NCBI RefSeq assembly: GCF_009912395.1
Contig: NZ_WNDO01000037.1
Span: 1-39,630 of the forward strand
Origin: Luteibacter sp.
GTDB taxonomy: Bacteria; Pseudomonadota; Gammaproteobacteria; Xanthomonadales; Rhodanobacteraceae
Direction of reading: 5' to 3'
Length of the DNA stretch: 39,630 nucleotides
Shown here piece by piece: positions 36,171 through 39,630 of this stretch (positions are counted from its first letter, which is position 1; every line of letters starts with the position of its first letter). Below the pieces are notes generated by a model. That model was not told the DNA's origin. It ran no database searches and was given only the letters and a program-made list of their open reading frames with translations. Made by a program: the position numbers and the translations under genes.

Positions 36171-37604
<1,434 letters not shown>

Positions 37605-37627: not shown

Positions 37628-37661
37628 AAGAAAGGCGCCCGTTGGGCGCCTTTCTTTTTGC
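37628..37661 (+). terminator. ahcY terminator
   Basis: Stem AAGAAAGGCGCCC / GGGCGCCTTTCTT with a GTT loop, followed by TTTG. A strong Rho-independent terminator 23 bases after the stop codon; it isolates the next locus from ahcY. Confidence 0.92.
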
Positions 37662-37732: not shown

Positions 37733-38683
37733 ATGCACTACCGAATCGCCGCGGTCTCGCTACTATGCGCGACGGCTTCCGTCGCCACGCACGCCGCTAC
37801 GAAGCAGGTCACGTACTACTACACCGACCCGCAGGGTACGGTGCTGGCTACGGCTGACGAGAACGGTAACATCATCGAACGTTCCGACTACCGGCCTTTC
37901 GGCGAGCAGGCACTAGGGAGCAAGCAGGATGGCCCGGGATATACCGGGCATGTGAATGATTCAGATAGCAATCTCGTATATATGCAACAGCGATATTACG
38001 ACCCTTCTATCGGCAGATTCATGTCCATAGACCCGGCCCCGCTCGATACAAGTCGTCTTCACAATTTCGCCAGATATACGTACGCAAATGACAATCCTCT
38101 CAGCTTCATTGACCCCGATGGACGGGAAGCTGAACTTTCCTGGAGCACCCCCTATCGGGTGACATCAACCATCCGTTACACAATGAGTGGTCCTAGCCTT
38201 CCATTCAATACAAATGACACAAATCTACAGGCATCTAGAAGTCTGAGCGGCTTGGTCAACATCAATGGAAAAATTGTCTTTCTCACAACCAATGCCATCT
38301 TCGTTCCCGGATCAAGCAACCAGTCCGGGACAAATCATGTAACGGTCGTTCCTGATACAAACGGTGTCACCAAGAGCGGGCGCGCGGAAACGAACAAGAT
38401 CGGCGGAAATCAGGTAACTGTTGGAGTTAATGGTCCAGATAGGGCAAACGTTTATACGATATCCCATGAATTTGGCCACGTTGCAGGAGCTGGCGATCAG
38501 TACCAAGGAGGACTGGGCGTCAATGGAAAAACTCTTTCGGCCGACGTTCCCGGTGACCCAAATATCATGAAGATGCTCAGCAAAGATGGTGCAAATGAGC
38601 AAACACTGCGTGAAATGATCGAATCCAAGTCAAACAAAAACACATGCTCACCAGGCGTTCATGCAGCGAATGGAGCCTGCTAA
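37733..38683 (+). CDS. Exported mini-RHS protein with metzincin-like C-terminal domain (candidate toxin)
   Basis: 316 residues from an ATG preceded by AAGGG. Residues 1-21 form a Sec signal peptide (VSLLCATASVATHA). Residues 25-131 are one RHS-repeat-associated core: YYYTDPQGTVLATADENGNI, YRPFGEQ, YMQQRYYDPSIGRFMSIDP, NPLSFIDPDGRE. In RHS toxins the region after this DPDG block is the variable effector. Here it is about 185 residues with HEFGHVAGAGD (245-255), which fits HExxHxxGxxD, the zinc site of metzincins with Asp as third ligand, and a likely Met-turn PNIMKM (277-281). It is therefore a probable zinc protease. The signal peptide implies Sec export rather than loading on a type VI spike. 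From about 37960 on, base use is AT-richer than in the core genes. The stop overlaps the next gene (TAATG). The domain fold is inferred from motifs only. Confidence 0.8.
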   Translation: MHYRIAAVSLLCATASVATHAATKQVTYYYTDPQGTVLATADENGNIIERSDYRPFGEQALGSKQDGPGYTGHVNDSDSNLVYMQQRYYDPSIGRFMSIDPAPLDTSRLHNFARYTYANDNPLSFIDPDGREAELSWSTPYRVTSTIRYTMSGPSLPFNTNDTNLQASRSLSGLVNINGKIVFLTTNAIFVPGSSNQSGTNHVTVVPDTNGVTKSGRAETNKIGGNQVTVGVNGPDRANVYTISHEFGHVAGAGDQYQGGLGVNGKTLSADVPGDPNIMKMLSKDGANEQTLREMIESKSNKNTCSPGVHAANGAC

Positions 38684-39195
38684 TGTATCGAGCTATTCTT
38701 ATCTCAATAATCATTGCATTTTCGTCGACCAAAGCATCCGCGGCACCTCCGTCTTCTGCCCCGCCAAATGTCTGCACGGCTCATTTTCGCATGTGGTGCG
38801 CCATCCAATTAGCTAAGGCCACCACTATTCGAGACGACGGTGATGAAGTAGTTGCCCTGACCTCGGATACACCTCAGAAAGACGAAGATCCCCTCATCGT
38901 CATCGCGCCGCCATCATGTGCTACCGGCAATGCGAGTGAAATGACTTTCAAAGGATTGACCCTCGACCAAGTCTATGACGGAAGATTGAAGGATGAGCTC
39001 AGAGTAGCTCTTAGTTCCACATGCGAAATCAAGATCCTTCTTCCGAAGTGGCGTGCTGATTCGTTCAATTGGCCCTATCAAATTGGCCTTGAGGCCATCC
39101 GTCCGTGCCCCAATCGCGAATGCGTTGGCCCACAAGTCGGGGAACTCAAACCGAGGTTCGCCATCAAGTATCGTCGCCAGCTACTTCGCCCCTGA
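38683..39195 (+). CDS. Small exported Cys-rich protein, candidate immunity partner
   Basis: 170 residues; no family recognised. The ATG at 38683 overlaps the stop of the RHS gene (TAATG), with GGAG seven bases upstream inside that gene, so the two are translated together. An earlier ATG at 38644 would lie inside the RHS gene and spoil the signal peptide. Residues 1-20 (YRAILISIIIAFSSTKASA) are a signal peptide. The mature part has six cysteines (31, 39, 79, 114, 142, 147), enough for three disulfides, and no lipobox. A small gene directly after an RHS effector is usually its immunity gene; periplasmic location fits a toxin that is itself exported. An inhibitor or chaperone of the protease is the alternative. 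AT-rich like its partner. Confidence 0.65.
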   Translation: MYRAILISIIIAFSSTKASAAPPSSAPPNVCTAHFRMWCAIQLAKATTIRDDGDEVVALTSDTPQKDEDPLIVIAPPSCATGNASEMTFKGLTLDQVYDGRLKDELRVALSSTCEIKILLPKWRADSFNWPYQIGLEAIRPCPNRECVGPQVGELKPRFAIKYRRQLLRP

Positions 39196-39314: not shown

Positions 39315-39630
39315 TGATCTTGCCCCCGTTTCACGGACACCCCTATAAGCGATTAACTATCGCAATAGGAGGTGGACGATGACCAAGAGCAAGGCAGGCA
39401 GAAAGGGGCAGGAGTTCAGCCTGGAGTTCAGGCAGCAGGCACTGTTGCGAGCGGCCACAGAAGGGGTAACCACGGTGGCTCGTGATCTGGGGGTGCAGCC
39501 TGTCCAGCTGTACAGTTGGCGCGCCCAGGCGCGGCGGCACGACCAGGACGATCAGGCACAACGCTTGGAGTTGGCCGAACATGCACGGCTCAAACGTGAA
39601 GTGGCGCGGCTGGAGGAGGAGAACGCTTTC
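39315..39630 (+). mobile_element. IS3-family element, right copy (5' part)
   Basis: Begins TGATCTTGCCCCCGTTTCAC at 39315, 119 bases after the previous gene ends, and runs off the window. The first 127 bases equal the reverse complement of 127-1, so the two copies face outward with their OrfA ends pointing away from the window centre. The far ends and target duplications are not visible. Confidence 0.85.
39379..39630 (+). CDS. IS3-family transposase OrfA (partial)
   Basis: 84 codons to the window edge, ATG behind GGAGGTGG. Residues 9-50 (QEFSLEFRQQALLRA...VARDLGVQPVQLYSWRAQARR) form the helix-turn-helix of IS3 OrfA proteins, which recognises the IS ends. The following HARLKREVARLEEENAF is the start of the leucine-zipper helix used for OrfA/OrfAB contacts. 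OrfB, with the DDE catalytic core, would follow outside the window. No inactivating change is seen in the visible part. Confidence 0.9.
   Translation, partial: MTKSKAGRKGQEFSLEFRQQALLRAATEGVTTVARDLGVQPVQLYSWRAQARRHDQDDQAQRLELAEHARLKREVARLEEENAF

Follow-up and report, generated by a model that had tools for sequence, protein, structure and literature searches.

A Sec-exported mini-RHS protein with a metzincin-like domain and its overlapping exported partner in Luteibacter: a predicted toxin-immunity pair and the possible detachable end of a separately encoded Rhs shell

We analyzed a 39,630-nucleotide stretch of DNA from Luteibacter sp. (contig NZ_WNDO01000037.1, hereafter the window; contig C31 in our numbering of a 5.39 Mb genome, coded G000, that is assembled in 56 contigs), focusing on two overlapping genes near its end, both on the plus strand. 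Gene 1 (37733..38683, including the stop codon) encodes a 316-aa mini-RHS protein and gene 2 (38683..39195) encodes an exported protein of 170 aa with six cysteines that is predicted to be the cognate immunity protein. The two genes very probably encode a toxin of the metzincin type together with an immunity protein that acts in the periplasm, with toxicity and immunity deduced from domain content and pairing. It is also likely, with some less confidence, that the gene 1 product is one of several interchangeable warheads, in this case a protease, of a two-part antibacterial Rhs weapon whose shell is encoded elsewhere in the genome, with gene 2 as the periplasmic antidote.

A metzincin-like domain and its exported six-cysteine partner

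An earlier, sequence-only reading of this DNA had proposed the gene layout, Sec-type signal peptides on both proteins and a single RHS core in gene 1, and all three hold. Both open reading frames (ORFs) are confirmed, gene 1 by ORF, profile and alignment evidence, and they overlap by one base, the A in TAATG. Using a Sec-type score written for this analysis, we predict signal peptides at approximately residues 1-22 of gene 1 (37733..37798, immediately ahead of 37799) and residues 1-20 of gene 2 (38683..38742). The RHS core of gene 1 (residues 23-131; 37799..38125) matches TIGR03696 over residues 53-130 with an E-value of 8.7e-20 and 71 bits against the curated cut-off of 32.5, and corresponds to the last ~108 residues of the solved Rhs and TcC shells. 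It contains both aspartates of the bipartite Rhs self-cleavage motif, Asp100 of DP (38030..38032) and Asp127 of PxxxxDPxG (38111..38113). The protein consists of this single core, which ends with DPDG, and a C-terminus, and no YD-repeat cage is present in the chain.

The C-terminal domain (residues 132-316; 38126..38680) is predicted to be a metzincin-like protease toxin. It contains the zinc-binding motif HEFGHVAGAGD (residues 245-255; 38465..38497) and a Met-turn-like NIM motif, in which IM are residues 278-279 (38564..38569) and the methionine is Met279. Residues H245, E246, H249, G252, D255 and M279 are invariant across our 13-protein alignment (A1), in which two of the proteins have one extra residue within the zinc motif (HELGGH). 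This HELGGH form in place of HExxH was observed in P0011, P0012, L011 and L104 (here and below, L numbers denote genomic loci and G numbers genomes), in proteases that are otherwise conserved. The predicted fold of the domain appears metzincin-like, as the sequence-only reading had anticipated from the motifs, with snapalysin, ADAM/TACE, MMP, karilysin and astacin as the known proteases of comparison; the predicted local distance difference test (pLDDT) values are 70-93 for most of the protease domain, and the core alone stays below 50 over mature residues 30-108. Of the checks proposed in that reading, structure prediction points to a metzincin-like fold, and sequence profiles yielded nothing significant: the best matches were Pfam Reprolysin_5 at an E-value of 0.07 and the M6 domain model TIGR03296 at 1.6e-4, far under its cut-off. 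The domain shares with known metzincins the HExxHxxGxxD/H motif and the Met-turn, and probably the predicted fold, and differs from them in lacking a significant family match at the sequence level. None of the Pfam models Tox-MPTase1-5 was among the families of gene 1 up to an E-value of 1, a range in which the HMMER filters drop most matches above 0.1, and DUF1020, the constant domain of MafB, was absent from the Pfam hits.

Gene 2 encodes exactly six cysteines (31, 39, 79, 114, 142 and 147), in agreement with the earlier count, and all six are invariant among nine homologues with 18-88% identity. No Pfam or NCBIfam family matched the protein. A gene-2 homologue is located directly downstream of the related C-terminal domain in all five full-length contexts (the window, L011, L012, which is from a Luteibacter rhizovicinus contig, L036 and L104), at distances of -1 to +1 or -4 bp; the tblastn E-values for gene 2 are 5e-12, 0.008, 7e-9 and 1e-7 for L011, L012, L036 and L104, respectively. 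Across 398 genomes of the order, the gene-1 domain was found in seven, gene 2 in five and both in three. The toxin-immunity type of pairing proposed from the window alone, which a routine absence of the second gene would have undermined, is thus retained among the closest relatives, and because these features are conserved in other genomes, their presence in the window is not a matter of chance. The same protease domain occurs at the end of a full Rhs ORF of 1627 aa in L011, in a fragment in L036 and in mini-RHS proteins elsewhere.

The pairing with gene-2 homologues does not extend to a sister protease subfamily, although the protease domains of the two groups are related (hhalign probability of 98.1%, E-value of 7.1e-14). 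We considered whether gene 2 shares an ancestor with the cysteine-containing exported proteins paired with that subfamily and rejected the idea, as hhalign gave a probability of 1.4%. In genome G361, we observed an array with three (L105) and two (L106) mini-RHS genes along with protease-tail remnants preceding gene-2 homologues, the remnants being two near-identical copies at distant places.

An exported pair of this kind could also consist of an ordinary secreted protease, employed for nutrition or host contact, and, in gene 2, either a helper in its folding or an exported protein with no connection to it. There are precedents for exported zinc proteases accompanied by helpers or inhibitors, gene 2 has no family assignment, and the top structural match of the C-terminal domain is a chaperone-substrate complex (6o38). 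Nevertheless, we regard this as the least probable of the explanations considered here and a very improbable one, given that the domain is only one of many attached to the same core, several of which are nucleases that make no sense for nutrition, and that gene-2 homologues without the protease are found in L108 and L109, as expected of orphan immunity genes. Around these orphan homologues are runs of small ORFs (L108:4300-6700 and L109:5000-7000), of which several have exported-type starts and one (L108:5689-6102) may resemble the NTR/TIMP fold.

A large class of mini-RHS proteins with a common core and variable C-termini

Gene 1 is not a lone oddity but a member of a large class. The Luteibacter genome itself encodes 10 RHS cores, 3 in large ORFs and 7 in ORFs of 316-340 aa, and each of these seven is overlapped by a small next ORF (by 25 bp once, by 4 bp five times and by 1 bp in the window). 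Five of the seven pass the stricter signal-peptide threshold of 3.6, and the other two score 2.89 (L113) and 3.43 (L117). Several of these paralogs carry other predicted ends. Two have C-termini with HELYH (L114:5551-6108, which matches Peptidase_M91 weakly, with an E-value of 0.014) and HESLH (L116:6415-7002), and a third has a GEIHTHPDN C-terminus (L115:5520-6140) that is presumably JAB-like; all three have exported-type partners. The partner of a further one (L113:375-812) belongs to DUF7878 (E-value of 3.1e-14), a family whose role may be immunity.

To place these genes in a broader context, we collected Rhs-core ORFs with at least 80 residues after the core from 79 loci of the genome collection and further genome stretches. 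After removal of two duplicate rows and omission of L107 and L112 as repeats of L012 and L032, there were 117 such ORFs (82 short, 29 large and 6 cut at the start). Of the 82 short ORFs, 73 have a called next ORF at a distance between -30 and +60 bp, and in 34 of these the two overlap by 4 bp or 1 bp. A signal peptide was detected within 50 codons ahead of the core in 51 of the 66 ORFs in which no more than 130 codons precede the core (the window counted), in 8 of 21 intermediate ORFs and in none of the 31 large ones. From 67 mini-RHS candidates, 59 were retained by hand, the eight that were dropped (two from L032, one each from L036, L049, L050 and L088, and two from L053) having the appearance of fragments without a signal peptide.

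The cores of these 59 proteins form one BLAST cluster, and the C-termini fall into 44 clusters. Ten of the C-termini could be assigned to Pfam, with nine families represented: Peptidase_M91, M23, M15_3, Tox-GHH, GH-E, Ntox50, Ntox10, NucA/NucB and DUF4329. Both aspartate motifs of the bipartite self-cleavage site, which has been described for Rhs proteins in the parts of PMC13018210 on which we draw, are present in 56 of the 59. Thus, the class combines a constant, trafficking N-terminus with variable C-termini, and in the closest relatives of gene 1 the downstream gene is kept together with the C-terminus, the organization typical of polymorphic toxins.

Seven of the 29 large Rhs proteins share a clearly aligned C-terminus with a mini-RHS protein (L011, L019, L040, L076, L080, L082 and L110; the alignment is weaker for L048). 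Such sharing of C-terminal domains, together with the fragments without signal peptides downstream of single-chain Rhs genes (L036, L049 and L050), is what one would see if mini-RHS genes were mostly silent orphan cassettes, a store of C-termini for recombination onto full-length Rhs. However, signal peptides directly ahead of the core set the short ORFs apart from the large Rhs, and there are 24 distinct large partners (see below) that lack the core needed for any exchange of C-termini, so we consider this explanation improbable.

The type of predicted toxin matches the predicted compartment of the next gene product

The idea that an exported protease is accompanied by an exported partner is supported by the predicted signal peptide on gene 2 and by counts across the collection. 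All 20 HExxH-containing C-termini with a called next ORF (15 mini-RHS and 5 large Rhs) are followed by one called exported; in one further case (L014), no next ORF was called. Without HExxH, the next ORF is called exported in 31 of 81 cases (23 of 58 mini-RHS and 8 of 23 large). The difference is significant (Fisher p of 1.9e-7, with kinship ignored); these counts leave out the HELGGH variants of L011 and L104. Under stricter scoring of the 59-member set, with HELGGH included, the numbers are 9 of 10 versus 15 of 45, with the automatic calls unchanged.

By family, the automatic calls place M23, M15_3, M91, DUF4329 and Ntox50 in the group with exported partners and Tox-GHH, GH-E, NucA/NucB, Ntox10 and M91 in the group with non-exported partners. 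Two misfits, both overruled by eye, are due to the crudeness of the lipobox pattern: the partner of the Ntox50 protein in L022 was called exported from a lipobox-like string alone, and that of the Peptidase_M91 protein in L046 was called non-exported, yet opens with the lipobox-like MISALLVACAAP, outside the window of the pattern. Such a split among partners would be expected if nucleases have to be neutralized in the cytoplasm and proteases that act in the envelope have to be neutralized in the periplasm.

Core-less exported carriers

The sequence-only reading had noted that the large RHS cage is missing. It is absent from the gene 1 chain but probably not from the genome, in which other genes encode shells without the very core segment found in gene 1, so the cage is probably separate rather than lost. 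The full Teneurin shell model PF25023 gave no match in this genome at an E-value of 0.001, and hence an exported Rhs protein of 1423 aa from contig C56, which has a core and no toxin end, served as the query, at an E-value of 1e-20, against 33 genomes chosen for the presence of mini-RHS or of the protease described here. All 33 contain matches, which are of two complementary kinds: large ORFs, mostly of 1700-2050 aa, that cover the query from ~30 to 1300, and short ORFs that cover ~1296-1404. With a core-less shell defined as a match of at least 600 residues ending at query positions 1279-1335, and the counts read by eye, 31 of the 33 genomes encode such a carrier; G419 has a partial one, G415 has none, and in G361 and G409 the core-less shell is itself in two pieces. 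Four of these carriers belong to the Luteibacter genome (one each on C49 and C53 and two on C56), and the one at C53:77594-81427 shares an operon with a mini-RHS gene.

A signal peptide was predicted for all 24 distinct core-less carriers, compared to 75 of 345 control ORFs under the same greedy choice of start codons. Past the break, the carriers continue for another 103 residues (in Xanthomonas) or ~300-590 residues. The loci contain 29 core-less shell ORFs, and in 13 cases the distance from the stop codon to the start of the next core is 54-177 bp, which leaves room for little beyond a signal peptide; in G195, a carrier is located 2-6 kb upstream of the related protease mini-RHS. Among 101 sampled genomes of the order, carriers were found in 14, mini-RHS in 16 and both in 11 (p of 8.5e-9; 13, 15 and 10 with the Luteibacter genome left out, p of 4.2e-8); the same length and end-point rule was applied and the sets were read by eye, and because no more than five candidates per genome were scored, both carriers and mini-RHS have probably been missed in places.

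Elsewhere, the family includes single chains without a break, such as those in L011, L019, L036, L083, L086 and L087. The shell is also found split into two ORFs at residue ~590 or ~910 (L061, L073, L082, L058, L080, L089 and others); together with the break ahead of the core, these would represent several split points for one cage. In the Luteibacter genome, three shell genes resembling that of the Bcn-A bacteriocin discussed below are arranged in tandem (L119:1802-11689; G000:C56:52636-66688). The first of these, the 1423-aa gene, has kept the core and has neither the second DPxG motif nor a toxin end, thus resembling a natural fusion of carrier and core.

The alternative that also involves a toxin-immunity pair holds that mini-RHS proteins, like MafB toxins, act alone, that they exit in vesicles or through type II secretion and use the core simply for adhesion or processing, and that the nearby carriers are a separate weapon. 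Mini-RHS proteins do have signal peptides of their own and are often far from carriers (in the Luteibacter genome, five of the seven do not adjoin one in the stretches examined), and the MafB proteins, in the parts of the source used here (PMC4287609), are a precedent for polymorphic toxins that are routed through Sec, begin with a small domain and are followed by an immunity gene. On the other hand, it leaves unexplained why the carriers are devoid of precisely the piece that mini-RHS proteins supply, why the two share an operon in 13 of 29 cases and co-occur across genomes, and why, in the Bcn-A account (PMC7259588, in the sections drawn upon here), killing required both the shell gene and ORF4. 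We consider this alternative unlikely, though less so than the other two. The free-standing, small Sec-routed protease of the sequence-only reading is likewise judged less likely than the end piece of a two-part Rhs weapon because the shell genes of the same genome lack exactly the core present in gene 1. Given the pair, a removable end of a shell that is made elsewhere appears to be the better of the mechanisms considered, a choice we make with modest confidence.

The proposed mechanism and the route of secretion

Under the split-shell scenario, the gene 1 product would be exported by Sec, and its RHS core would complete, as the final segment, a YD-repeat shell whose remainder is an exported carrier encoded elsewhere. 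Carrier and warhead would assemble in the periplasm and leave the cell via type II secretion; self-cleavage after the DPxG motif would then allow the C-terminal metzincin protease to be released in the envelope of a rival cell. The gene 2 product would guard the producer and its kin in the periplasm, to which it would be exported because this is where the protease acts.

With regard to the exit route, GspD, a marker of type II secretion, was found in all 34 genomes that carry these genes (33 over the cut-off; the count was made within those genomes only), so that gene 1 combines a signal peptide with a type II apparatus in the same genome. TssB, the marker for type VI secretion, was detected in 18 of the 34, the Luteibacter genome included; type VI delivery of mini-RHS proteins is not favored, with no TssB match in the other 16 genomes and with the signal peptides arguing against it.

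The strongest hint on the route comes by analogy, from the Bcn-A locus of Xanthomonas perforans. In the sections of the report on which we draw (PMC7259588), this locus (deposited as AF454545) consists of ORFs of 1398, 124, 100, 290 and 145 aa, with ORF4 (290 aa) possessing a signal peptide and some identity to WapA/RhsA; killing is lost when ORFA, ORF2 or ORF4 is deleted, ORF5 is sufficient for immunity, and an xpsD mutant has no Bcn-A activity, indicating that type II secretion is needed. A locus in Xanthomonas Leaf148 (L034) has the order 1398 aa (an exported shell without a core), 123, 101, 304 (a mini-RHS) and 143 aa, the likeness to Bcn-A being one of sizes, order and features rather than of sequence. 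Between the carrier and the mini-RHS gene of this locus (L034:7178-7856), there are two small exported-type ORFs that are similar in size to ORF2 and ORF3 of Bcn-A. The helix peptides printed for X. perforans ORF4 had no match in loci of up to 20 kb or in 35 genomes of the genus, an empty result that is uninformative. The authors of that study considered the 1398-aa ORFA to be the toxin and ORF4 to be accessory; if Bcn-A is a split Rhs system, ORF4 would instead carry the toxin and ORF5 would be its cognate immunity gene.

More generally, in Lysobacterales, one exported, core-less YD-shell carrier might take any of several mini-RHS warheads in trans, each with a compartment-matched immunity gene, in which case the pair in the window would be a protease warhead with a periplasmic antidote, and Bcn-A would be an example with the toxin assigned to the wrong gene. 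We consider the chances of this broader scheme to be about even. If true, it would explain how seven or more different Rhs toxins can come from a single genome that does not have a full-size cage for each; it would also place a type II-dependent Rhs bacteriocin, known from experiments but without an explained mechanism, within a general architecture and make testable the long-open question of how Sec-routed Rhs proteins are assembled and kept protected within the producer cell.

Genomic neighborhood and composition

Gene 1 follows ahcY, which ends at 37604, and a terminator-like hairpin (37628..37656, plus strand) between the two suggests that gene 1 is not transcribed from the ahcY transcript; two terminator-like sites were found compared to a mean of 2.1 in shuffled sequences, so the hairpin is weak evidence when taken alone. 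Downstream, outside the system, the 5' part of an insertion sequence (IS) transposase gene (39379..39630, plus strand; HTH_Tnp_1, E-value of 4.6e-10) runs off the end of the contig. The GC content drops from 0.651 for the window and 0.645 for ahcY to 0.555 for the signal peptide and core of gene 1, 0.486 for its C-terminal domain and 0.519 for gene 2. The GC content at third codon positions falls from 0.915 in ahcY to 0.641 in the signal peptide and core and 0.465 in the C-terminal domain, with 0.518 in gene 2. This drop is consistent with a foreign origin of the C-terminal cassette and of the partner gene, in line with the recent acquisition that had been read from the composition and the adjacent IS.

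Comparison with known systems

The general kind of system is already known, given that Sec- or type II-routed toxins with RHS repeats, MafB, Tox-MPTase1-5 and a lipobox-bearing immunity family are all listed by Zhang et al. 2012, in the portions of that work used here (PMC3482391). In the literature searched, we found no description of a separately encoded RHS core with a toxin that completes a core-less exported shell. In addition, the pair would contribute two families, one of metzincin-like toxins and one of immunity proteins with six cysteines, neither of which has a Pfam or NCBIfam match.

A metalloprotease toxin paired with a signal-peptide-bearing immunity protein is also seen in the karilysin-like effector PAAR2-Tse2 of Stenotrophomonas rhizophila; as presented in the available sections of PMC13340143, that protein is a PAAR-fused type VI effector, and its immunity protein was compared to Potempin A. 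MafB of Neisseria resembles gene 1 in its signal peptide, short constant N-terminus, variable C-terminus and directly downstream immunity gene, but its constant part is DUF1020 rather than an RHS core, and no such shell partner figures in the portions of PMC4287609 cited here. With single-chain Rhs polymorphic toxins and bacterial teneurin-like proteins, the mini-RHS system shares the RHS core, the DPxG motif, the variable C-terminal toxin and the downstream immunity gene; here, however, the shell and the core-toxin are separate exported proteins, and the type VI marker is not matched in 16 of the 34 genomes.

Bcn-A is similar in gene order and sizes to L034, in its signal peptides, the small Rhs-like ORF4, the downstream immunity ORF5 and type II-dependent killing. 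It differs, as far as the cited sections of PMC7259588 go, in that ORF4 ends with two predicted membrane helices rather than a protease, and in that the shell protein was named the toxin there, whereas we assign the toxin to the small Rhs piece. The closest known mechanism, by analogy, appears to be that of the TcB/TcC cocoon of the ABC toxins, for example, YenB with YenC1 or YenC3, where two chains complete one YD-repeat shell and, according to PMC11067744, YenB packages several YenC partners from different loci. The Tc shell is split in the middle, whereas the mini-RHS split falls just before the RHS core, and the pieces of the mini-RHS system, unlike those of Tc, have their own signal peptides and downstream immunity genes.
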